Assembly (NCBI GenBank): GCA_030833725.1
Contig: JAURGP010000016.1
Location: 1-41,935, forward strand
Origin: Candidatus Kapaibacterium sp.
GTDB lineage: Bacteria > Bacteroidota > Ignavibacteria > Kapaibacteriales > Kapaibacteriaceae
Direction of reading: 5' to 3'
Length of the DNA: 41,935 nucleotides
The stretch's first letter is position 1; each line of letters opens with the position of its first letter. A program made the position numbers and the translations under genes. Below are positions 2,477 to 14,688 of the stretch, in pieces. The notes under the pieces are model-generated. The model ran no database searches, had not been told where the DNA came from, and was given only the letters and a program-made list of their open reading frames with translations.

Positions 2477-3146
2477 ATCACTCCAACGGAAGCGCGAGCG
2501 GGTAGTTGCCATCCTGGACACCCTTGCTGAAGCCTATCCCGATGCACGCGTCGGCCTGGACTTCACGACGCCATTTGAACTACTCATTGCCACGATCTTG
2601 AGTGCACAATGCACCGATGAGCGGGTCAATCAGGTGACACCCCTCCTGTTTGCCAAGTATCGTACGCCACGGGACTACCTCGGTGTGCCGATCGAGGAAC
2701 TTGAAGCCGACATCCACTCGACGGGATTCTATCGCAACAAGGCCCGCAACATTCAGGCCTGCTGCCGAGAGCTGATCGACCGTTTCGACGGCGAGGTACC
2801 CACAACGCTCGACGACCTGGTCTCCCTTCCCGGCGTTGGACGAAAAACAGCCAATTGTGTGCTGAGCAATTGTTGGAACATTCCCGGCATCACGGTGGAT
2901 ACGCACGTCACGCGGATCAGCCGACTACTCGCACTCACCACGGCAACGGATGCGGTGAAGATCGAGCATGACTTGATGAAGCTGATGGAGCGTGATCGCT
3001 GGAATAGCTGGAATCATCTGATCATCAGTCACGGCCGACGCACGTGCATTGCCCGACGTCCGAAGTGCGACCTCTGTCCGATTATCGACCACTGTCCATC
3101 GGCCCATCGTCAAACGGGCAAGAGTCACATCGGAGCGCGCAGATGA
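2466..3146 (+). CDS. nth: endonuclease III (DNA glycosylase/AP lyase)
   Basis: This is a 226-residue base-excision repair enzyme. It removes oxidised pyrimidines from DNA and cleaves the abasic site. The helix-hairpin-helix L-P-G-V-G-R-K-T-A-N carries the catalytic Lys127, and the catalytic Asp145 is in V-D-T-H-V-T-R. The C-terminal 4Fe-4S loop has the exact C-x6-C-x2-C-x5-C spacing (Cys194, 201, 204, 210). The frame is open further upstream, but ATG 2466 gives the normal family N-terminus (MARESLQRKRERVVAIL). It overlaps the end of the GT2 gene by 11 bases. The stop overlaps the start of the next gene as ATGA. Confidence 0.97.
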   Translation: MARESLQRKRERVVAILDTLAEAYPDARVGLDFTTPFELLIATILSAQCTDERVNQVTPLLFAKYRTPRDYLGVPIEELEADIHSTGFYRNKARNIQACCRELIDRFDGEVPTTLDDLVSLPGVGRKTANCVLSNCWNIPGITVDTHVTRISRLLALTTATDAVKIEHDLMKLMERDRWNSWNHLIISHGRRTCIARRPKCDLCPIIDHCPSAHRQTGKSHIGARR

Positions 3147-5077
3147 CACGATCACGTATGCGGTTCATCTCACGTGTGTCTGTTGCGGTGCTTGTTGTTG
3201 CTGTCGGTGTCGCAACTGGACTTCGTGCCCAGGATTCCGATACTTCGGTGACGGTCGGCCTGGTAGGGGGCGGAACAATGGCTCTGCACCAGGGGTCCTT
3301 CACTCAGCTTGGCTCCTTCGCTTCGTGCTGTCCGGAGTTTACTTCGGGAACGGGTGTAGGGGGCTACATCGGCGGCTTTGCAACGCTGCCGTTATCGAAC
3401 CGGTGGAGGCTCCACGCGCGGCTGGTCTATGCCGGCGAGCCGGGCACACTTGTCAGCATCGAAAACGTTGCCGTGGCCGATCTGCGCGATAGTGCTCGAG
3501 TGGTGCAGGCGGAAATGACGCATGAACTTCAGGCCTCGCTCACGAGTGTGGGTATCGAGCCACTCCTTGCTCTGCGTCTGGGCAAGGGTCTGGATCTGAT
3601 GGCGGGTGCGCGTGTTGCCACCGTGCTGAGCCGTTCCTTTCGGCAAACGGAAACGCTCACCAAGCCCGAAGACTATGGCACCTACCTCGGAGGCGACCGC
3701 ATCTGGGTGAATCATCAGGCAGACATCCCGGAGGCATCATCGGTACGCGCTACGGCCGTGTTGGGTGCTCGGATGATGGTCCCCCTGCGTCGCGATGGCT
3801 CGTTCTTCATGGCACCGGAAGCTTTTCTGCACGTGCCGCTGACAGACGTGGCTACTGTACCCTGGAGCATCACAGAGCTGCGTCTCGGTGTGTCGGTGGG
3901 CTGGGCCCTGCGTGGCTCAACGCCCGAGCCTCCTCCCGCAGTACCTGCTCCCCCTCCCCCACCGCCTGCCGAGCCCCCTGCCACACTTGCAGGACTGACG
4001 TTTTTGGCCAACAATCAACCGATAGAGGCCATGACCATCGAGCGAACGGAGGTCACGGAACTCGTGCCGGTGCTCGGACACGTGTACTTCGACGAGGGGT
4101 CGTCGGACATCCCGGATCGCTACCGATATCGCGGTCCAATCACGACACCCGTCAACGTGGTGTACAGCGTGCTACCGATCGTCGCCGAGCGCATGCAGCA
4201 GTCACGTGGCGTGCTGACTATCACCGGTACAACCTCCGGTACAGCTGCCGACCAAGGTCTTCCACTGGCTCGACAACGTGCTGAACGCATTCGCCAGGAG
4301 TTGATCAACATGGGAGTTCCGGCACATCAGCTGCGTGTAGAGGCACGCCGTTTGCCACGGCAACCGACAGCAGCGTCGTCGGAGGATGAAGTCGTGCTGG
4401 CGGAACAGGAGAACCGCCGTGCGGAGCTGAGGTGTAGTGATCCGGCAGTGCTGGCCCCCTACATGATACGCATGGTCGAACAGCGGGTTGTGCCAGAGGA
4501 GATCCAGCTGCGTCCGTCGGTGATCTCATACGCTGGAGTGGTCTCCACCAGCATCACTATCGGCGAGGGCAACGCCAGACGCATCTATCGCCCTGGAGAC
4601 GTGATCCGCACGGCCGACCTGCTTGGTCCCGATGGCTCGTTCCGCACGTCGGGCCTTGCAGCCACCATTACGGTACTGGATAGTGCTGGACGCACAACAA
4701 CGGAGTCAGTTCGCCTGCCACTCCGTCCTGCACAGATGCGCGTGGCACCATCTGAGCGGTATCGGCTGATTCTGTTTCCCTTTAACAGTGCCGACATCAA
4801 CGCTGATCACCGAGCAACCCTTACCATGATCTCCGCCTCGTTGCAGCCATCCGCCACGGTGAGGATTATCGGCCTAACCGATACCATGGGTTCCAGTGAG
4901 CACAATCTGGAACTCTCCGCCCGCCGAGCCGAGGCCGTCGCTCGGGCCCTGGACGTGCCACTGTCCAATGCCCGCGGACTGGGTTCGCAACAACCGTTGC
5001 TGTCGAATGGTCTGCCCGAGGGTAGGGCCTACCACCGTACGGTGGTGATCGAAGTGCAGCCCAGTACTTCCGAATGA
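3143..5077 (+). CDS. outer-membrane barrel protein with two OmpA-like domains (paralogue 1)
   Basis: The 644-residue protein starts at ATG 3143, which overlaps the nth stop as ATGA. A signal peptide covers about residues 1-28 (...VAVLVVAVGVATGLRAQ). A beta-barrel-like region follows to about residue 260 and carries a Cys62-Cys63-Pro64 motif (F-A-S-C-C-P-E-F). A proline-rich linker lies at about 261-280. The first OmpA-like domain, about 312-430, has T-S where the canonical T-D should be. An Ig-like linker region leads to a second OmpA domain at about 540-636 with the canonical peptidoglycan-binding pattern G-L-T-D-T-M-G-x5-N-x-x-L-S-x-R-R-A. The likely role is an outer-membrane anchor tied to peptidoglycan. 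It is clearly paralogous to the gene at 9502-11571. The barrel and OmpA assignment is strong, but the substrate or partner is unknown. Confidence 0.85.
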   Translation: MTRSRMRFISRVSVAVLVVAVGVATGLRAQDSDTSVTVGLVGGGTMALHQGSFTQLGSFASCCPEFTSGTGVGGYIGGFATLPLSNRWRLHARLVYAGEPGTLVSIENVAVADLRDSARVVQAEMTHELQASLTSVGIEPLLALRLGKGLDLMAGARVATVLSRSFRQTETLTKPEDYGTYLGGDRIWVNHQADIPEASSVRATAVLGARMMVPLRRDGSFFMAPEAFLHVPLTDVATVPWSITELRLGVSVGWALRGSTPEPPPAVPAPPPPPPAEPPATLAGLTFLANNQPIEAMTIERTEVTELVPVLGHVYFDEGSSDIPDRYRYRGPITTPVNVVYSVLPIVAERMQQSRGVLTITGTTSGTAADQGLPLARQRAERIRQELINMGVPAHQLRVEARRLPRQPTAASSEDEVVLAEQENRRAELRCSDPAVLAPYMIRMVEQRVVPEEIQLRPSVISYAGVVSTSITIGEGNARRIYRPGDVIRTADLLGPDGSFRTSGLAATITVLDSAGRTTTESVRLPLRPAQMRVAPSERYRLILFPFNSADINADHRATLTMISASLQPSATVRIIGLTDTMGSSEHNLELSARRAEAVARALDVPLSNARGLGSQQPLLSNGLPEGRAYHRTVVIEVQPSTSE

Positions 5078-5110
5078 GGTTTTGACGGCCTGAAACAAGG
5101 CTGGGCGTTG

Positions 5111-5118
5111 TACTTTTG
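5111..5118 (+). promoter_or_regulatory. candidate Bacteroidota-type -7 promoter box
   Basis: TACTTTTG matches TAnnTTTG in the 72-base gap before the T9SS giant and lies 31 bases upstream of its start. A TTTG at 5081-5084 is 26 bases upstream of the box, which is longer than the usual spacing of about 20. The -33 element is therefore not convincing. If the box is used, the surface cluster from 5150 onward has a promoter separate from nth and the first OmpA gene. Confidence 0.4.
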
Positions 5119-5135
5119 GGGATACGTGCCACCCT

Positions 5136-5142
5136 GGAGGAG
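5136..5142 (+). promoter_or_regulatory. ribosome binding site deciding the start of the T9SS giant
   Basis: GGAGGAG ends 7 bases before ATG 5150. The frame is open to an earlier ATG at 5108, but that start has no such site and would put a charged, Trp/Pro-containing stretch in front of the signal peptide. ATG 5150 is therefore preferred. Confidence 0.75.
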
Positions 5143-5149
5143 TCCCCTC

Positions 5150-8100
5150 ATGTATCACTGCTTCTGGCAACGGTGCATCGCCATCGTCATCACTGGACTG
5201 TTGCTCCTTGGTGGCTTGCCGCTGAGAGCCACCGGACAGACCATCTTCGGCCTTGGACCGGCCAACTCGGAGCTGCGTACCGTGCAGATTCCGATCTACG
5301 GATTTAGCGCCGAAGGTGCCGCCACCGACATCGACGCCGCGGAGATCGAACTGCGTGTGGATGGGCAGGTACAGACGTTTACGCTGGGAACGGATGATCA
5401 GGCCACCGAGCGAACGATATCGATGGCCGTGCTCGTTGACGCCTCCTCCGGAGCCAGTGCACCAGACATCCGCAGTGTTCTACGTGCCGGCGTGGATGCC
5501 GTACCGTCGGCGGTACGAACCACGGCAGATCTTCTTGCCTTGACACAGTTCGCCAGCGAGCCCACGATGCTTCTTGGCTTCGATGCCGATCCCAGCAACT
5601 ACACGCAAGCTGCCAACGAGCTTGCGTCCTTATCCGGCTTCGACCTACAACGCGCCTTGATCGAACCTACCATGGGTGGGCTGCGCATGATGCAGACAGC
5701 GCCGCGTCATCGCGTCCTACTGATCCTCACCTCGACGAGCACAGCGATTGATCTGGATGCGACGCTCGCACTGGCACGGACGTTCCAGATCTCGGTGTAC
5801 GTGGGATGTACCGATGCCTCGTTGGATCCCTCCGTCCGCCTCTTGTGTGAAGGTAGTGGCGGCACGTGGGCCGAAGGCCTGACCACCACCGAGGCCATGT
5901 CCGGCTTCGTGTTGGCAGCTATCAGCCATGCCAAGACGCTTCCGGCACAGCGCGTGGAATTCGACCTGCCGAGCGCCTGTGCTCCATCGGTTGCCGCGAC
6001 ACTGACCATCGGCGCCACAACGCGGGAGATCAACCTTGCTGTAGATCCTCTGGCGCCTTCGACGTTTGAATGGTTCCCGGCCGGACTTGACTTCGGTACG
6101 GGCTCCGACGAACAGGTTCTGGAGGCCACCGTTATTGCCCGGGGGCCCGAGCCCCTTACCATCGAAGCAGCACGGATTTCAACGGCTGCCTATACCATTC
6201 TGAACCCGGTCGTGGGGATCGAGACCATTCTACCCGGCAGCTCGCGGACCTTCCGCATCCAGCGTGCGGCCAATCCAGATGGTACGTTTGCCGTGCTGGA
6301 GTTAGTGGCCACAACATCGTCTGGCGTGGCTATCTGTGATGGTACGACCTTTGTGATGCGAGGAGGGTTGCCAACCACAGGAGACCGCTTCACGGTGGTT
6401 GCGCCAAATGGTGGAGAGGCTCTCACAGCTGGTGCACCCACCACCATTCGGTGGACGAACAGCCTGCCTCAAACAAAGGTGCGCATCGACCTCTCCACCG
6501 ATGGTGGAGATTCCTGGCGTCCGATCACCGAGCAAGCTCAGGGATTGGCGTACACCTGGATACCCGGTCCGGAGCTCACCACTGATGCCCGCATTCGCAT
6601 TCAAGAGACCCTCCTGCCAGATACGTCCATCGTAGAACTGCGTGGACATCTGTCGCCGGTGTACGCTACGGTGTTTGCCAATGAAGGACGGTGGGTACTC
6701 ACCGGCGGACACGATGGTACGATCCGCGTGTGGGATGCCAATACGGGAGAGTTCCTGCAGCAACTCGGAAGTCATGGTTCATGGGTCTGGGATCTCGACG
6801 TAAGCCCTGACGGACGATTTCTTGCTTCTGCCGGACACGACGGCGTGGTGTCGATCTGGAACCTCTCTACCGGTGCCCGCGTGCGAAGCATCCTAGCGGA
6901 TGCTCGTGTATGGTCGGTAGCCTACCATCCATCCGGCACCGAGGTCGCCATTGGCACCGATCGGTCACTGTCGGTTGTAGACGTAGCGACTGGGCGGACG
7001 ATCGATTCTCACAGTACCGGTGCCAGCCGTTGTTTAAGCGTGGCCTACACGTCAGACGGTACAGCCATCCTGAGCGCTGAAGGTTCCACGGTACGCCTCC
7101 GAGAACGTAGCTCGCTCCAGGTGGTCCGGTCCACCTTTACCGGACACACCGCCGACGTCTACGCTGCCGTGATCGATGCCGCCTCTTCCACGGTCTATAC
7201 AGGAAGCGCCGACTACACGATTGCTCGGTGGAACGCCTCCACGGGCGTGCTGACGCACGTCACCACGCCATCCATTGCCTCGATTCTCAATCTTGATCTG
7301 GCGCCAGATCAGCAGACCCTAGCTTCGGCAGGGGGCGATGGCACGGTAAAGGTGTGGTCAAGTACTGATCTAGATCTGCGATCCAGCTTTGCCGATCACG
7401 TCGGATCGGTGTACTGCGCTACGTTCGACGCAGCCGGTACGCGCATAGCTTCCGGTGCCACCGATACCAAGGCCTTCATTTGGAACGTCGCCTCAGCTGT
7501 CACGTCCGAGGACCTCAGCGATGCCGGTTGGTCGATCGTGGGCGGAATGGTTGCTACGGCCGACGCCAACCACGGCAGTATCCGCGTGGGCGCCGGTGCC
7601 GACATCAGCACATCAATGGTGTCCAACACCGGTGCGGAAGATCTCATCCTGCGCAGCATGCGCGTGGTGTCGGGCGACGTCCAGGACTTCCTGCTTATGG
7701 TGCCGTCCTTACCGGTGCGGTTGGAGCCGGGCATGTCACTTCGACTCCGATCGTCGTGCTCGCCAACAACCATTGGTCCGCGTACGGCACTGGTCGACAT
7801 CGAAACTGGTGTGGGCACTACCACAGCCGTGCTGCGAGCTGAAGGCGTTGCACCCCAGCTGCAGACCATCCCACAGAGTCGCCTGATCGACTTTGGTCGA
7901 TTACTGGTAGGTCAGACGCAGGCCGACACCACGATCCGGTTCACCATTCCAAGCGGCGGTAGTAGCGTCGAGGTCACACGAGTGGTACTTACGGGTGTTC
8001 AGCGCGGTGCCTTCACGATCACCTCTGGAGGGTCGGCCTTTACCTTGAGTCCTGGTGCGGTACACACGATGTCCGTGCGGTGCTCACCCACCCAGGTAGG

Positions 8101-9502
8101 ACGGTACGCAGCTCGCATCGAGCTCACCACAGCAGATGGATCGGTGACCACCATCCGCCTCTACGGCGAAGGCCTTGGTGATGGTCGCATTGCTACCACC
8201 ACCAATACGCTCCTCTACCAGACGGATCCCTGCGTACGGCAGACCACCGTGCAAACGGCTACGATTCTCAACCAGGGTACAGCTCCGCTGACCCTCTACA
8301 GTATTGCTGTTGTGGGGTCACGCGCCGAGGACTTCGACATTACCACTCCGGCAATCTCGGCGCTTCCACTGCAGATTCCTCCGGGCGAACAGATTGGCGT
8401 GTCGGTTGCCTACCAGCCCGTTGGTGTCGGTTCGAGTATCTCCCGCTTGGTGATTTCCTCGAATGGAATCGGCGTTGGAGGGAGCACACTGGAGATCCCT
8501 CTGATTGCCCGTCAGGACAGCGTCGGCTTCGAGCTGACCGTACCCCATGTTCACTTCGACAATGTGCAGGCGCAACAGCAGGCAGCACAAACAGCAACGA
8601 TCGTGAATACCGGCACGACAAGCTTGCAGTGGCCCACCCAAGGGATCGACCTTGGAGACTTCCGCCTCGAGAACATCGAGCCAACCATCACGCCGGCCGG
8701 TGGCACCTCAAGCTTCACAATCCGGTTTAAAGGTGCCGAGCCGCGCTCGGAACCCTATATCGCCAGCTACACTTTTACCGATTCCACGTGTGGGCGTAGC
8801 AGCACGCTTACCATGTCGGCAACCGTGAAGAGCTACATCGGTGCTACGCTCGAGGCGGCCATTGTGCGCGCTTCCATCGGTCAGGAGGTAGACGTTCCCG
8901 TGCGCCTGACCAACCGAGTCAACTTCGATCGAACCACCATTCGCGAGATCTCCGCTCGTGTTCGCGTTAACGGCACGATCCTCACACCACTCGGTGTGGA
9001 GAGTACCTTCGCCGACGGCGAACGGACATTTGTGACATCGCTCTCCATTCCCGAGTCCGGCGATGTGGTAGGAACGCTGCGCTTTCGCACGACGTGGGGC
9101 AATGACACCTCTGCCATCGTAGAGTTCGACTCCGTCTGGACAGCCGACACCGTTGTGGTGACCACGCGCAACGGCGAGGTTATTCTCGATGATCTGTGTC
9201 GGGAAGGGGGCCCACGACTCTTCTTGCGACGATCCTCTCAACAAGGGATCGGCATCACGCTGGTTCCGCATCCTATCGCTGACGCTGCCACAGCGGTGAT
9301 CACGGTGGTAGAACACGGGCCAACCCTCGTGCAGGTTGTCAACGTACACGGTCGTGTGGTGGCCACACTTGCAGATCAGGTCCTGGCTCCTGGACGATAC
9401 CTCTTGCCGCTGGAGGCCACAGACCTCGAAACCGGCAGTTACACGGTGGTACTGACCACCCGAACACAGCAGATGTCTCAACGTTGTACGGTGGTGCGAT
9501 AA
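5150..9502 (+). CDS. giant T9SS-exported surface protein: vWA-like, seven WD40 repeats, anchor-D/ASH-like domains, C-terminal sorting domain
   Basis: This is a 1450-residue exported protein. A signal peptide spans about 1-30 (...ITGLLLLGGLPLRATGQ). A vWA-like domain at about 85-280 opens with V-D-A-S-S-G, so the metal-site motif D-x-S-x-S is incomplete. At about 420-495 is a P-N-G-G-E ... I-R-W-T domain. Seven WD40 repeats lie at about 497-783, with closing residues I-R-V-W-D, V-S-I-W-N, L-S-V-V-D, V-R-L-R-E, I-A-R-W-N, V-K-V-W-S and A-F-I-W-N. That is enough for one complete propeller. About four choice-of-anchor-D/ASH-like Ig domains follow (about 790-1220), then a cohesin-like domain, then D-D-L-C-x-x-G-G-x-R-L-F. 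The last 80 residues are a T9SS type A sorting domain (V-V-N-V-H-G-R-V-V ... G-S-Y-T-V-V-L). It is presumably anchored at the cell surface. The stop TAA shares a base with the next ATG (TAATG). Confidence 0.85.
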   Translation: MYHCFWQRCIAIVITGLLLLGGLPLRATGQTIFGLGPANSELRTVQIPIYGFSAEGAATDIDAAEIELRVDGQVQTFTLGTDDQATERTISMAVLVDASSGASAPDIRSVLRAGVDAVPSAVRTTADLLALTQFASEPTMLLGFDADPSNYTQAANELASLSGFDLQRALIEPTMGGLRMMQTAPRHRVLLILTSTSTAIDLDATLALARTFQISVYVGCTDASLDPSVRLLCEGSGGTWAEGLTTTEAMSGFVLAAISHAKTLPAQRVEFDLPSACAPSVAATLTIGATTREINLAVDPLAPSTFEWFPAGLDFGTGSDEQVLEATVIARGPEPLTIEAARISTAAYTILNPVVGIETILPGSSRTFRIQRAANPDGTFAVLELVATTSSGVAICDGTTFVMRGGLPTTGDRFTVVAPNGGEALTAGAPTTIRWTNSLPQTKVRIDLSTDGGDSWRPITEQAQGLAYTWIPGPELTTDARIRIQETLLPDTSIVELRGHLSPVYATVFANEGRWVLTGGHDGTIRVWDANTGEFLQQLGSHGSWVWDLDVSPDGRFLASAGHDGVVSIWNLSTGARVRSILADARVWSVAYHPSGTEVAIGTDRSLSVVDVATGRTIDSHSTGASRCLSVAYTSDGTAILSAEGSTVRLRERSSLQVVRSTFTGHTADVYAAVIDAASSTVYTGSADYTIARWNASTGVLTHVTTPSIASILNLDLAPDQQTLASAGGDGTVKVWSSTDLDLRSSFADHVGSVYCATFDAAGTRIASGATDTKAFIWNVASAVTSEDLSDAGWSIVGGMVATADANHGSIRVGAGADISTSMVSNTGAEDLILRSMRVVSGDVQDFLLMVPSLPVRLEPGMSLRLRSSCSPTTIGPRTALVDIETGVGTTTAVLRAEGVAPQLQTIPQSRLIDFGRLLVGQTQADTTIRFTIPSGGSSVEVTRVVLTGVQRGAFTITSGGSAFTLSPGAVHTMSVRCSPTQVGRYAARIELTTADGSVTTIRLYGEGLGDGRIATTTNTLLYQTDPCVRQTTVQTATILNQGTAPLTLYSIAVVGSRAEDFDITTPAISALPLQIPPGEQIGVSVAYQPVGVGSSISRLVISSNGIGVGGSTLEIPLIARQDSVGFELTVPHVHFDNVQAQQQAAQTATIVNTGTTSLQWPTQGIDLGDFRLENIEPTITPAGGTSSFTIRFKGAEPRSEPYIASYTFTDSTCGRSSTLTMSATVKSYIGATLEAAIVRASIGQEVDVPVRLTNRVNFDRTTIREISARVRVNGTILTPLGVESTFADGERTFVTSLSIPESGDVVGTLRFRTTWGNDTSAIVEFDSVWTADTVVVTTRNGEVILDDLCREGGPRLFLRRSSQQGIGITLVPHPIADAATAVITVVEHGPTLVQVVNVHGRVVATLADQVLAPGRYLLPLEATDLETGSYTVVLTTRTQQMSQRCTVVR

Positions 9503-11571
9503 TGTCTACACATCTCTTCCCCGTGGCTCCGCGCTGGATGCTCGTCATCGTACTGCTTGGATCGTGTGCCGTCTCGATCCATGCGCAAGCACAATCCTCG
9601 CTCTATGGTCGCCCACAGCCAGCACGGTTTGGCGTATACGGTAGCTGGGACGGTACCCTCAATAGCGCAGCGTTTACTGGTCTGCCAGGCATTGCCAGCT
9701 GCTGTCCATCCTACGGTAGTACAATGTCGTCGGGTTGGCGCGCAGGCCTTGCCTACATCAAACCGATGTCGTCGGAACTGTCACTCCAGGTGCGCATGTC
9801 GTGGGAGTCGGGCACGGTGAATTTCCAGTCGCTGGAGAACCAACCGATCGTGTCGGAAACAGGTCTACCCGAAGAGGCAACGATTCGTCATGAGTTGGCA
9901 ACAGCATCCAGCCTGATCAGCATTGAGCCCCTTATCGGATGGCAGCCTGTACCAGGGTTGAATCTGCTTGGCGGCGTTCGGCTGGGCTACCGCGTCTCCA
10001 ATACGTTTACGCAGCGGGAAGTACTGGTAGATCCCATCGACGGTGTCTTCCGTAATCTGTCGCGCGAACGTAACGTTCTCAGCGGAGACATCCCCGAGGC
10101 GTTGCCGTATGCAGCCAGCGCCACAATTGGGGCGAGCTACGACCTGCCACTCAATGCCGACAGATCCCTGGTCCTCAGTCCGGAACTGTTGGTCTCGGTT
10201 TCCCCGATTGGGGTTGTCTCCGGACTGTCGTGGACGCAGCATACGCTGCGTGCCGGACTTGTGCTCAGCTTCGTTCCTCCGTCGATTGTGATCGATCTCA
10301 CCGACCAAGAACTGTTCGAGGAGAGCCTGAATCGGTCGGCGTCCAGCTCGTCCTCCAGCTCGGCATCCAGTTCGACGTCAGCCACCGTTCCCTTCCGGGC
10401 AGCCCTGGTGGCACGTGGTGTAAGCGAAGACGGCCGGGAGACGGCCCTCCAGGAGCTCCTTGTGGAAGAGGTTCGGTCGTACCGCCAACGACCCGTGCTC
10501 CCGCTGGTCTTCTTCGACGCCGAGAGCTACGACCTACCAGCGCGCTACTACCGCGTGACAGCCGATCAGCGCCAACTGTTCTCGATGGATAACTTTTACA
10601 ACCTGGACGCTCTAACGACATATCGCCATGTGCTGAACATCGTTGGTCGGCGGATGACCGACGATCTCGCTACAACGATCACACTGGTGGGTTCGGCAGC
10701 TCCTAAGGAACGTGGAGGAACAGATCTGGCACTCGAGCGCGCCGCGGCGGTACGCGACTACCTCGTAGACACCTGGAACATCGACGAAGACCGCATCACG
10801 GTGGACGGCACGGTGGGTGGTGATCGCCAGGTCACGCTCAGGGCGTCCACACCAGCCGTCTTCGATGACGTCCACTCCATGGACACCGTGCGCCTAACCT
10901 CACCCGCGGGCCTGCGATTCCAATCGTCGGTGTCGTCGGCGGTGTCGTCGTCGGCGGTTCCTATTGCCGACTGGCGCATTCTGGTATCGCGACGCGGTGT
11001 TGTTGTGCACAGCGAGCGAGGGGGAGAGCCCCTTGCAGCCTCTGTTGATTGGCGCGTTTCTACTCGACCCGCAGCCATCAGCCGAGGTACGACGGAATTG
11101 AGTTTTCTCCTAGCCGTCACCGACTCTAACGGTGTGGTGGTGCCAACCGAGGTACAACGACTTCCGGTACGAGAGGTACGGCTGACCGATCCAACGGCAC
11201 GCGCGACGCGCTTGGATCGCTACTCGCTCCTGTTCAACGACGCCACAACGGCAGATCTGACGCAGGATCAGCTTCAACGCATTGCGCAGATACGCACGTT
11301 GATTCCGTCGGGTGCTACTGTGCGCGTAACGGGCTACACCGACGCCGCGGGACAGGACGACGTGAACTTGAACGTGAGTCAGCGACGAGCCAACAACGTT
11401 GCCAAAGCACTCGGAATCCCGGTGGCAGAAACCCGTGGGAACGGTCAGCGATTGCCACTCTATGCAGATGGCACACCGGAGGCACGGCTGTATTGCCGTA
11501 CCGTAGAGATCACCGTCGAGATCGCCGTCGAGAACGGCGTGGAACCGTCCGGTGAGGTGCGAAAACCCTGA
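9502..11571 (+). CDS. outer-membrane barrel protein with two OmpA-like domains (paralogue 2)
   Basis: The 689-residue protein starts at ATG 9502, inside the stop of the giant. A signal peptide spans about 1-35. A beta-barrel-like region with Cys67-Cys68-Pro69 (I-A-S-C-C-P-S-Y) runs to about 270. A serine-rich linker at about 279-295 occupies the position of the proline linker in paralogue 1. The first OmpA-like domain (about 332-450) has G-S-A-A in place of the G-x-T-D motif. The last domain (about 572-676) has the canonical G-Y-T-D-A-A-G-x4-N-x-x-x-S-x-R-R-A. Shared details such as S-I-E-P-L, the R-H-E-L/T-H-E-L segment and D-I-P-E-A show duplication from a common ancestor. The likely role is a peptidoglycan-linked outer-membrane partner of the giant. 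The stop TGA shares a base with the next ATG (TGATG). Confidence 0.85.
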   Translation: MSTHLFPVAPRWMLVIVLLGSCAVSIHAQAQSSLYGRPQPARFGVYGSWDGTLNSAAFTGLPGIASCCPSYGSTMSSGWRAGLAYIKPMSSELSLQVRMSWESGTVNFQSLENQPIVSETGLPEEATIRHELATASSLISIEPLIGWQPVPGLNLLGGVRLGYRVSNTFTQREVLVDPIDGVFRNLSRERNVLSGDIPEALPYAASATIGASYDLPLNADRSLVLSPELLVSVSPIGVVSGLSWTQHTLRAGLVLSFVPPSIVIDLTDQELFEESLNRSASSSSSSSASSSTSATVPFRAALVARGVSEDGRETALQELLVEEVRSYRQRPVLPLVFFDAESYDLPARYYRVTADQRQLFSMDNFYNLDALTTYRHVLNIVGRRMTDDLATTITLVGSAAPKERGGTDLALERAAAVRDYLVDTWNIDEDRITVDGTVGGDRQVTLRASTPAVFDDVHSMDTVRLTSPAGLRFQSSVSSAVSSSAVPIADWRILVSRRGVVVHSERGGEPLAASVDWRVSTRPAAISRGTTELSFLLAVTDSNGVVVPTEVQRLPVREVRLTDPTARATRLDRYSLLFNDATTADLTQDQLQRIAQIRTLIPSGATVRVTGYTDAAGQDDVNLNVSQRRANNVAKALGIPVAETRGNGQRLPLYADGTPEARLYCRTVEITVEIAVENGVEPSGEVRKP

Positions 11572-12695
11572 TGAGAATCCTGGTGATTAACTGGCAGGAC
11601 CGCACGCATCCCCAGTCTGGCGGAGCAGAGGTCCATCTGCATGAAATCTTCGGACGCATTGCTAGGATGGGGCACGACGTCCATCTCCTGTGCTGTGGTC
11701 ATGGCACTGCGCCGGCCTATGAGGTTCTGGATGACCTGCACGTCTATCGCGTTGGGCACCGCCCCACCTTCAACTACTCGGTGCCCCGCTGGTGGAAGCA
11801 GTACGGTGCCGGGATGAAGCTGGATATTGTGATCGACGACATCAACAAGATTCCCTTCTTTACACCGCTCTACATTCGTCAGCCACTGCTGGCGATTGTT
11901 CACCATTTCTTTGGTTCGGCCATCTTCAACGAGGCCGGCTGGCTAGCGGGTACGTATGTCAAGATGTTCGAGGATCGCATCGGTAGAGTGTATCGGTCCA
12001 CGCCAATCGTAGCTGTTTCCGAGAGTACACGCCAGGAATGTCTGGAACGGGGCTTTGGAGCATCGAGTGTGTCCGTGATTCACAATGCCATCGACCATCG
12101 CTCCTACCCGATGCGTGTCGGCACGAAGAGTACGTCACCATCGGTGGTCTACTTTGGTCGACTGAAGAAGTACAAGAGCGTTGATCACGTGATTAAGGCC
12201 ATGGCACTTGTCCGGGAAACGATTCCTGACGCACACCTGCATATTCTTGGCACCGGTGACGAGCGCACAGAGCTGGAGCGCCTGGTAGACTTCCATGATC
12301 TGCAGGATACCGTCACCTTCCACGGTTACGTGACGGATGCCCAGAAGGTGGCTCACCTATCAGCGGCCCACGTTGCCGTGAATTCGTCGGTGAAGGAAGG
12401 CTGGGGCATCACCAACATCGAAGCCAATGCCTGTGGAACGCCCGTGATCAGTGCCAATGTGCCCGGCTTGCGCGATTCCGTTCGCGACGGCCTCTCCGGG
12501 TTGCTCTATCCCTACGGTAACATCGAACAGCTGGCTCAACTCATGACTCGTGTGTTGGTAGATCATCCGGAACGGACGCGCCTAAGTGAGGGGGCTGTTG
12601 CCTGGGCGTCGACCTTTACCTGGGAGCGCTCGGCGCGGGAAATGCTCGATCGGTGCGAGAACACCATCCAATCGTGGAAGCAGACGCATGGTTGA
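11571..12695 (+). CDS. family 4 glycosyltransferase
   Basis: This is a 374-residue GT-B glycosyltransferase. The N-terminal domain opens with I-N-W-Q-D-R-T-H-P-Q-S-G-G-A-E-V-H, a GG-A-E donor/acceptor loop typical of GT4 enzymes. The C-terminal domain has the retaining-enzyme motif E-G-W-G-I-T-N-I-E-A-N-A-C-G-T-P-V-I-S (E-x7-E type). No signal or membrane segment is visible, so it is cytosolic or peripheral. Its start overlaps the stop of the second OmpA gene by one base, and its end overlaps the next T9SS cargo gene by 8 bases. It therefore sits inside a surface-protein operon. It may glycosylate the surface polysaccharide or the cargo, but that is inference. Confidence 0.92.
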   Translation: MRILVINWQDRTHPQSGGAEVHLHEIFGRIARMGHDVHLLCCGHGTAPAYEVLDDLHVYRVGHRPTFNYSVPRWWKQYGAGMKLDIVIDDINKIPFFTPLYIRQPLLAIVHHFFGSAIFNEAGWLAGTYVKMFEDRIGRVYRSTPIVAVSESTRQECLERGFGASSVSVIHNAIDHRSYPMRVGTKSTSPSVVYFGRLKKYKSVDHVIKAMALVRETIPDAHLHILGTGDERTELERLVDFHDLQDTVTFHGYVTDAQKVAHLSAAHVAVNSSVKEGWGITNIEANACGTPVISANVPGLRDSVRDGLSGLLYPYGNIEQLAQLMTRVLVDHPERTRLSEGAVAWASTFTWERSAREMLDRCENTIQSWKQTHG

Positions 12696-14688
12696 ACGAT
12701 TCCTGTACATGATACTGCTACTGTGTTGCACCTCCATCGGGATGTGTGCGCAGCAGTTGGAGGGACGGGATACCAGGGGGCGAGATTTCTGGCTAGCCTT
12801 CCCACCCAATGATCATCCGTCGAACGTGGATGAGGCGGCGTTGAATGTGTACCTCTCCTCCGATGTCAACACAACGGCAACCGTATGGGCACGGACACGC
12901 AATGGCACCATCGACGAACGCACGTTTGCCGTTGATGCAGGTACGGTGGTGAAGGTAGACTTTCTGCCTTCCTTCCTTGAACTGCGTAGCGCCTCCTATC
13001 CGTCGGGAAGTACCGGTGATGCGGAGATTCCCAGCCCGGCGAGTGTGCACGTGACCTCGATCGATGAGATTACCGTGTATGCGTCGATCCGTGAACTAAA
13101 TACGTCGGATGCATGGGTCGTACTACCAACGGACGCTCTCGGTACCGAGTACCGTATTCTCTCCTACCCGTCTGATGCCCGCGCCGATACAGTCTTCATT
13201 CCCCTGCTCACTACGGCCTATCCCTCACAGTTCGTGGTGGTAGCCACAGAAGACTCTACGATCGTGGAGATCACTCTCTCCACCGCTGGATCACGCGTTG
13301 ACCCGTCGCAGCGCATTCGGTCCGTGCGGCTCGAGCGTGGTGAATCGTATCTCGTGCAGGCGCAGGTGACGGTCGCGCAGCAGAATGATGACCTCACGGG
13401 GTCGCTGATTCGCAGTTCTAGACCACTTGTGGTGTTGGCCAGTCACAGGCGCGCCCAGGTGCCAATTCTCAACGACAATGCCTCGCGCGACATGCTCGTT
13501 GAGCAGGTGCCAGCCGTCGACACGTGGGGAAAGTCCTTTGTGGTTCCCCCATTGCAGCCTCCAGCTGACGCGCCGGCGACGAGTCCAACGAGTTCTCCCA
13601 GGTTACGGGTTCTAGCGCACAAAGATGCCACTGACGTAATGATCAGCCCCGGCTCGATCATCACACTGAATGGTGGCGACGTGGCGGACGTTCCGCTGAT
13701 AGAGGCTGTCTCCGTGACGAGTTCCGAACCCGTACTCGTTGGCATCATCGATCGCACAGCGAACGAGGGGCAGTTGGGGTTAAACCGATCGGGTGACCCG
13801 TCGCTGATCGTTGTTCCGCCCCAGGAACAGCATCTGACTTCCTACCGCATCATCTCGATTGAACCACGTACCGTGGCGGACCCGTTTTACCGCGAGCACT
13901 TCATCACGGTATCAGCTCCGCTGGGCGCGCTGATCACCATCGACGGTCAACCAGTTCCAGCGCTGACGCCTCTGGCTGCATTACCCAGCTACGGATACGC
14001 ACACGTGCCGGTTGCCAGTGGTGCCCATGTTGTTGCGAGCGACTCCCTCTGTGGAGTAATCGCCTACGGATATGGGCCCGCTGAATCGTATGGCTATACC
14101 GGCGGCATGGCCTTCGAGCGCTTGTATCAACCCACAATCGTGCTGCGCGTGCTGGACCTTGACGCAGCACCGGGTACGCCGGGAGATCTGGTGGTAGTGG
14201 TGGATTCCGTCCTCGAGCAAGCAAGCCTAAACGCACTGCGTTTGTCACGTGTATCGGGAACGCTCTCCTACGATCGGACCATCTTTGTGCCGCAGGTACC
14301 GGGGAGTCCGTCACAGCTCCAGCGCGGTGATCTTGCCTTTACGCACACCTTTGACTCCCTCAACGTTGGCGACACCATGGCGGTGATTCCCGGGACAGTG
14401 GTGCTTGGACGGGTAGCGATGGATACGGTCACGATCGTGTCGACTGCTTGGTTCGATGTAGAAGAGAAACCGGTGTCTCCCACGGTCCGCACGCAATCAG
14501 GTGTGGTGACCGTAACCGACCTCTGTGACGCTGGCGGGCGCGTGCGACTATTCGACCCTCTAGCGACCGCACCGGTCGTTCGCATCTATGATGTGTTGGG
14601 TCGGCAGCGACCATCGATAGGTGATGGCTTCAACCTGGTCGTTACAACGCTTCAGGGGCGGACGACAACGCAGAAGGTGTGGCGCTAG
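12688..14688 (+). CDS. T9SS-exported protein with IgGFc-binding-type N-terminal region
   Basis: The 666-residue protein starts at ATG 12688, overlapping the glycosyltransferase by 8 bases. A signal peptide spans about 1-21 (FLYMILLLCCTSIGMCAQ). The next 450 residues match the IgGFc-binding-type region of bacterial surface proteins: G-R-D-F-W-L-A-F-P-P-N, L-N-V-Y-L-S-S, then several S-x-x-P-L-V-V-L-A-S and E-Q-V-P-A-V-D-T-W-G-K-x-F-V-V-P segments. A cohesin-like Ig domain follows. Then comes T-D-L-C-x-x-G-G-R-V-R-L-F and a short T9SS-type tail (V-V-R-I-Y-D-V-L-G-R). The tail is compressed relative to the giant's sorting domain. The ligand is unknown, and mucin/IgG binding is only a family name. 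The last 47 bases overlap ccmF on the other strand. Confidence 0.82.
   Translation: MVERFLYMILLLCCTSIGMCAQQLEGRDTRGRDFWLAFPPNDHPSNVDEAALNVYLSSDVNTTATVWARTRNGTIDERTFAVDAGTVVKVDFLPSFLELRSASYPSGSTGDAEIPSPASVHVTSIDEITVYASIRELNTSDAWVVLPTDALGTEYRILSYPSDARADTVFIPLLTTAYPSQFVVVATEDSTIVEITLSTAGSRVDPSQRIRSVRLERGESYLVQAQVTVAQQNDDLTGSLIRSSRPLVVLASHRRAQVPILNDNASRDMLVEQVPAVDTWGKSFVVPPLQPPADAPATSPTSSPRLRVLAHKDATDVMISPGSIITLNGGDVADVPLIEAVSVTSSEPVLVGIIDRTANEGQLGLNRSGDPSLIVVPPQEQHLTSYRIISIEPRTVADPFYREHFITVSAPLGALITIDGQPVPALTPLAALPSYGYAHVPVASGAHVVASDSLCGVIAYGYGPAESYGYTGGMAFERLYQPTIVLRVLDLDAAPGTPGDLVVVVDSVLEQASLNALRLSRVSGTLSYDRTIFVPQVPGSPSQLQRGDLAFTHTFDSLNVGDTMAVIPGTVVLGRVAMDTVTIVSTAWFDVEEKPVSPTVRTQSGVVTVTDLCDAGGRVRLFDPLATAPVVRIYDVLGRQRPSIGDGFNLVVTTLQGRTTTQKVWR

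Follow-up and report, generated by a model that had tools for sequence, protein, structure and literature searches.

A recurring pairing of type IX secretion substrates with OmpA-type barrels in Kapabacteria suggests a dedicated, probably disulfide-linked surface partner

Why would a bacterium place two OmpA-type barrel genes on either side of a gene for a giant protein exported by the type IX secretion system (T9SS)? This arrangement begins at position 3143 of the window, our term for the whole 41,935-nucleotide stretch of Candidatus Kapaibacterium sp. DNA analysed here (contig JAURGP010000016.1 of assembly GCA_030833725.1), which is one contig of a genome of 1.98 Mb that is 98% complete and has as its closest named relatives mostly Candidatus Kapaibacterium or Kapabacteria metagenome-assembled genomes. 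The original prediction, made from the window alone, was that two paralogous barrels hold an exported giant marked out by its WD40 repeats. The holding is supported by our analysis, and its unit has to be redrawn: what recurs is not the trio but a T9SS substrate gene lying directly upstream of a gene for an 8-stranded OmpA-type barrel, usually with a predicted peptidoglycan-binding tail; WD40 is incidental to this pair, and the locus extends to 14688 and includes a second substrate that bears the cysteine motif described below. With a probability of roughly 0.7, we read the barrel as a dedicated carrier or anchor for its T9SS substrate, akin to SprF with SprB but built on a non-homologous barrel and probably linked to the substrate by a disulfide. 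The features on which the argument turns are these:

3143..5077, + strand: OmpA1, 644 amino acids, with a signal peptide, 8-stranded barrel, Pro-rich linker, degenerate OmpA-like domain, linker domain and C-terminal peptidoglycan-binding OmpA domain (predicted; fold by homology to the AlphaFold2 model of OmpA2)
3326..3331, + strand: codons of OmpA1 Cys62-Cys63, in extracellular loop L1 as modelled
5150..9502, + strand: the giant T9SS substrate, 1450 amino acids, with a signal peptide, vWA-like domain, Ig-like domains, 7-bladed WD40 propeller, ASH/HYDIN Ig-like domains, C-terminal beta-sandwich, cysteine linker and C-terminal sorting domain (CTD)
6629..7519, + strand: the giant's WD40 propeller, about residues 494-790
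9197..9220, + strand: the giant's pre-CTD linker motif CREGGPRL (Cys1350-Leu1357), proposed from co-variation as disulfide partner of a barrel L1 Cys; the Cys is invariant in 18/18 orthologues and the linker has a low predicted local distance difference test (pLDDT) score
9251..9499, + strand: the giant's T9SS CTD
9502..11571, + strand: OmpA2, the second barrel/OmpA paralogue, 689 amino acids, overlapping the giant's stop by 1 nt (TAATG); AlphaFold2 mean pLDDT 92.7
9700..9705, + strand: codons of OmpA2 Cys67-Cys68, in extracellular loop L1 as modelled

The barrels belong to a large family, with about eleven members in the window's own genome, 9-37 copies in ten other fully scored genomes and strong representation in 35/35 genomes of the order and three further genomes of the class; elsewhere in a 392-genome sample of the phylum, matches had E values no better than about 1e-21. 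Our survey set comprised 215 unique barrels, 38 of them in trios, with genes called as the longest non-overlapping open reading frames and CTDs identified by a profile derived from 37 CTDs of the window's own genome; single calls of either kind may err. Among barrels outside trios, the same-strand gene at position -1 has a CTD in 97/158 (61%), compared with 11/333 (3%) at control positions +-3 and +-4 (Fisher p=5e-47; this and later p-values are indicative), and a CTD immediately downstream was found in 16/153. In 70/116 directly adjacent pairs, the earliest in-frame start found for the barrel is <=5 nt from the substrate stop or overlaps it. The partnered substrates are varied, featuring ASH/HYDIN Ig, CotH with a lamin-tail domain, nuclease-like, WD40 and IgGFc-binding domains, so WD40 can be ruled out as a defining trait. 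Once it is dropped from the description, the concern that homologous OmpA genes might occur mostly without a T9SS neighbour falls away, as the 61% with a CTD gene immediately upstream attest.

In the window itself, all three genes of the cluster lie on the + strand, and the outer two, proposed as paralogues, align as such over their full length (27% identity, E 3e-46). The junctions also proved to be as first described (ATGA between nth and OmpA1, a 72-base gap, then TAATG and TGATG), although a promoter-like box reported in the 72-base gap did not reappear when we searched that gap for one. The trio is intact in 15/15 other loci of the family with full context, which is more than chance; these run barrel-giant-barrel, with giants of about 1430-1466 amino acids that are 33-51% identical, and continue with a glycosyltransferase gene and another large gene.

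The barrel proteins have the architecture that was originally assigned to them. Each outer gene encodes a Cys-Cys-Pro (CCP) motif predicted to lie about 35 residues into the mature protein (residues 62-64 of OmpA1, 33 past the predicted mature N-terminal Gln, and 67-69 of OmpA2), a low-complexity linker and two OmpA-like domains, seen as two Pfam OmpA stretches in each. The second OmpA-like domain is canonical; the first lacks the peptidoglycan-contact Asp and keeps only the Arg. In the C-terminal domain, the family's peptidoglycan-contact residues (D580 and R595 in OmpA1) are found in 64/64 cases, and this Asp and Arg are invariant in a 56-row alignment. AlphaFold2, given OmpA2 with 56 relatives, modelled eight barrel strands and placed the CCP in L1, between strands 1 and 2, a loop necessarily on the outside of the cell if the OmpA tail lies in the periplasm. 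The closest structural matches of the barrel are NspA, OmpW, OmpA and OprF (Z 15-17), and those of the OmpA2 tail are OmpA-like peptidoglycan-binding domains (Z 12-14), including A. baumannii OmpA in complex with a peptidoglycan peptide (3td5, Z 13.9); a FadL-type chain is absent among the best 50 structural matches, which alone excludes nothing. Twelve family members consist of the barrel only, without an OmpA tail, and 10/12 retain a CTD gene directly upstream, which makes the barrel the core of the unit and the cell-wall tether optional. A His in L1 is also conserved. Away from the loop, many members carry a Cys in the last OmpA strand (GRFYCRTV; for example OmpA2 Cys665, window 11494-11496) and some a Cys in the first OmpA-like domain (TGC), both predicted to be periplasmic. 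Three barrel/OmpA paralogues of the window's own genome (L003:6752-8707; L004:6709-9135 and 11101-13110) have neither the Cys pair nor a CTD neighbour, and one of them adjoins a recR-like gene; they are possibly orphans or members with a different role. At five loci (L122, L125, L129, L131 and L145), tandem barrel genes stand behind a single substrate; all are Cys-less, the substrate motif is SYAGGARL/PRL and L1 of the first barrel is unusually long.

The loop cysteines co-vary with one Cys of the substrate, situated just before the CTD in a motif, C..GG.RL, that typifies partnered substrates. The pattern G..R[LFI] precedes the CTD in 101/122 partnered substrates as against 4/37 unpartnered CTDs of the window's own genome, whose linkers are often of the SVEE/SVDE type. 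Across 122 pairs, the barrel-loop Cys and the pre-CTD Cys are both present in 103, both missing in 16 and discordant in 3. Pairs outside trios account for 85 with both, 16 with neither, 1 with barrel Cys only and 1 with substrate Cys only (p=1.3e-16), the last coming from a tandem, in which the first barrel has the Cys pair and the discordant one is the second; those in trios comprise 18 with both and 1 discordant case, which is an N-masked stretch (L216). When each substrate is counted once, the Cys just before the CTD is present in 103/105 substrates of Cys-bearing barrels and in 0/11 of the others (p=1e-13). No other window of the substrate that we tested came close to this link, the best giving p 0.012 with the opposite sign. 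In a barrel tree from which the loop columns were omitted, the barrel-loop Cys and the pre-CTD Cys disappear together in five clades, and pairs from ten held-out genomes, which share genera with the discovery set, follow the same pattern (14 both, 12 neither, 4 barrel only, 0 substrate only; p=2e-5). In several Cys-less substrates, the motif is retained with the Cys alone replaced (SYAGGARL, GLYYEDGIPRL and GLNYAGGGVRL). Four unpartnered CTD proteins of the window's own genome (L172, L174, L183 and L201) carry a C..G..R(L/I)-like motif and, judged by sequence, are possibly orphan substrates of unlinked barrels.

Other causes of this co-variation can be weighed directly. Both types of pair occur within single genomes (G059, at L069; G036, L071 and L081 versus L262 and L267; G037, L305 and L328 versus L330 and L331), which rules out a genome-wide loss of disulfides. 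A metal site formed by the L1 His and the cysteines is disfavoured, since the His stays where the Cys are lost. A disulfide internal to the substrate is disfavoured as the sole explanation: in 14 substrates outside trios the nearest other Cys, if any, is more than about 190 residues away, and where an upstream Cys exists it does not track the Cys state of the barrel.

The giant's T9SS tail scores below cut-off on its own (17.8 bits against 23), and the sorting domain that the original prediction saw there becomes convincing with relatives: 22/22 aligned giants match TIGR04183, the type A model, at E<=0.01 (best 5e-10). The seven WD40 repeats also hold up, with five stretches in Pfam (E 8e-36) and a 28-strand propeller in seven blades in the AlphaFold2 model; choice-of-anchor-D / HYDIN-type Ig domains are matched as well. 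The proposed vWA-like region is real in relatives, 17/18 aligned giants matching VWA_2 and many orthologues keeping the metal-ion-dependent adhesion site (MIDAS) motif, DxSxS with TDG, but the copy in the window has no vWA match in Pfam and an apparently degenerate MIDAS (within 5150-6500, DASSGAS with LTSTSTA in place of TDG). In the model, a low-confidence linker starting at Cys1350 joins the beta-sandwich to the CTD. Five cysteines of the giant (277, 396, 1028, 1214 and 1350) are invariant in 18/18 orthologues, an odd number.

The machinery that such a substrate would need is encoded in the same genome, which has SprA, PorU and three PorV-family proteins of the T9SS core together with 73 CTD matches at E<=0.1, including 50 that exceed the cut-off. 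A search with PorP_SprF (PF11751) found no match in this genome and weak matches in 2/35 genomes of the order, while the same search reached E values down to 1e-99 in other classes; type B CTDs (TIGR04131) gave no match above cut-off in 30/30 genomes tested, including this one. The NCBIfam PorE model scores 16.7 and 17.8 bits on the window's barrels against a cut-off of 600, through the OmpA part only. The original claim that the cluster is distinct from PorE- and PorP-type parts is supported: no PorP_SprF protein was found in the genome, and the barrel is 8-stranded and OmpA-like rather than of the 14-stranded FadL type described for PorP/SprF.

We propose that the giant would be exported by Sec and then pass the SprA translocon by means of its CTD, after which the 8-stranded barrel encoded next door would bind it and so receive or hold it at the surface. 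Cys1350 of CREGGPRL would most likely bond a Cys of the L1 CCP as a disulfide, and the barrel's C-terminal OmpA domain would bind peptidoglycan and so secure the surface protein to the cell wall; the barrel may have a part in export or in anchoring only. OmpA1 and OmpA2 would probably divide between them the giant and the IgGFc-type protein encoded downstream, or else both grip the giant. We put at slightly better than even the fuller proposal that an 8-stranded OmpA-type barrel covalently captures its exported partner by an extracellular disulfide, from the C..GG.RL linker to the loop CCP, and tethers it to peptidoglycan, making it the Kapabacteria counterpart of PorP/SprF plus PorE and a new class of anchoring.

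Several observations weigh against this reading. The p-values count related sequences as independent, hence their indicative standing, and 62/215 barrels have no CTD neighbour, some being cut by contig ends and others perhaps orphans. Each barrel has two L1 cysteines and the substrate motif one; many substrates have another Cys about 130-170 residues upstream, and an internal bond is possible in some. A few barrels with the Cys pair have a Cys-less substrate, four of them in held-out pairs and one in the window's own genome (L006:6442-11942, with an upstream WD40 substrate lacking the pre-CTD Cys, the one clear exception in the discovery set); pairing therefore does not require the Cys. Across the whole class PorP/SprF is missing or marginal, including where the barrel is rare; the barrel therefore need not be a direct replacement, and replacement is only one reading. 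Finally, an 8-stranded barrel is smaller than the known T9SS carriers, which have 14 strands; it may not dock to SprA and so could act after PorV.

An alternative, to which we give rather less than an even chance, is that PorV carries these substrates as it does other type A proteins and the adjacent barrel is a later anchor or cell-wall tether with no part in export. The 22/22 matches to the type A model, the presence of PorV and PorU in the genome and the lack of FadL likeness in the barrel all favour it, but the partnered CTDs can be told apart as a subset by a pre-CTD motif of their own, as would be expected if they had their own receiver. A dedicated partner that works without a disulfide, its cysteines belonging to a surface for non-covalent docking or to a metal site that the two proteins share, seems unlikely to us. 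The gene pairing stands without the Cys, Cys-less pairs keep the same gene order and the L1 His is conserved, all of which such a partner would accommodate; yet Cys-less barrels keep that His, without the Cys-His co-variation that a metal site would give, and several Cys-less substrates change the Cys alone while the motif stays.

The barrels might also have a general OmpA role in peptidoglycan attachment or outer-membrane stability, with the giant using them incidentally. The canonical peptidoglycan-binding Asp and Arg, invariant in the aligned set, agree with such a role, but it would not need 9-37 paralogues and sits poorly with the tail-less members, 10 of twelve of which still have a CTD gene directly upstream; we consider it quite improbable. 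Least credible is co-localisation without interaction, in which abundant OmpA-type and T9SS genes end up adjacent and the Cys correlation arises by descent. Both families are large in these genomes and related sequences inflate the counts, but the enrichment is position-specific (61% at -1, 3% at +-3 and +-4), the Cys losses coincide five times and Cys and Cys-less pairs share single genomes, so this explanation is already largely refuted.

Beyond the trio, the locus continues in the window with these features:

11571..12695, + strand: glycosyltransferase-like gene, joined to OmpA2 by a TGATG junction, in a conserved syntenic block; its role is predicted
12688..14688, + strand: second surface protein, with a signal peptide, IgGFc_binding domain (PF17517), C..GG.RL motif and short degenerate CTD
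14524..14550, + strand: motif CDAGGRVRL in the second surface protein

The IgGFc_binding domain of the 12688-14688 protein is matched at E 1e-53; the protein, whose gene is coupled to the glycosyltransferase gene, is conserved in the family. In orthologues of the same family whose C-terminus is intact, a Cys with RLF(D/S/N)P after it is retained; in another family, locus L207 has a barrel with the Cys pair whose immediate upstream neighbour is an IgGFc-type protein with a full CTD. Because the locus thus holds a second substrate with the same Cys motif, its two barrels may serve two substrates, the giant and the 12688-14688 protein; alternatively, both act on the giant, as tandem barrels elsewhere sit behind one substrate.

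Our literature search, confined to open-access papers, found nothing on Kapabacteria and OmpA and only an unrelated paper on Kapabacteria and type IX secretion. In that literature, neither surface retention of T9SS substrates in lineages without PorP/SprF nor a disulfide anchoring route of this kind has been described. If the proposal is correct, these bacteria have a second, independently evolved solution to the problem that SprF solves for SprB, with carrier, anchor and cell-wall tether fused and a predicted surface disulfide, and the 9-37-copy paralogue family of an almost unstudied group is accounted for. The sequence rule, C..GG.RL plus a neighbouring CCP barrel, also predicts pairings of surface proteins with their anchors.

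How, then, does the unit compare with known systems? Each type B substrate comes with a PorP/SprF carrier of its own, in most cases encoded immediately downstream, and stays bound to it (PMC12618676, PMC9143113), and in P. gingivalis the PG1035-PorP(-PorE) system ties the substrate to the cell wall through PorE (PMC9143113, PMC12618676). The Kapabacterial unit shares with SprB-SprF of F. johnsoniae and with PG1035-PorP a barrel gene directly after the substrate gene, many paralogous pairs per genome and the holding of a surface protein by a barrel, which is known there and probable here. However, its barrel is 8-stranded and of OmpA type rather than 14-stranded and of FadL type, its CTD is type A-like rather than TIGR04131, its Cys pair lies in an extracellular loop with a predicted bond to the substrate, and a single protein combines its anchor with a predicted peptidoglycan-binding domain. 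Like a type B pair in layout, it contains neither a PorP_SprF barrel nor a type B CTD, and is a variant of the kind that joins a substrate to a dedicated partner, not a member of the type B class.

SprF offers a precedent for a T9SS substrate's outer-membrane partner with twin cysteines: a C-X-C pair in its periplasmic tail joins it by a disulfide to the gliding track (GldK), a link that is proven (PMC12635249). Those cysteines are periplasmic and bond the track, whereas the Kapabacterial ones sit in a loop at the surface and their presence follows that of a substrate Cys. PorE is also linked to the T9SS and ends in an OmpA-like domain that binds peptidoglycan (PMC7192894). It is a periplasmic lipoprotein with a tetratricopeptide repeat (TPR) and a propeller and no barrel (PMC9143113), and its architecture includes a CRD as well; the Kapabacterial protein has a barrel in place of the TPR and propeller. 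With OmpA and OprF it shares the 8-stranded barrel fold, and with these and Pal a C-terminal peptidoglycan-binding domain, to which it adds a degenerate OmpA-like domain, a linker domain, the L1 CCP and the pairing with T9SS substrates. The type A route, in which PorV and PorU sort proteins to anionic lipopolysaccharide (A-LPS), is alike in CTD type and in the presence of PorV and PorU in the window's genome, but type A proteins come without a barrel of their own, and the partnered Kapabacterial substrates are set apart by the linker C..GG.RL.

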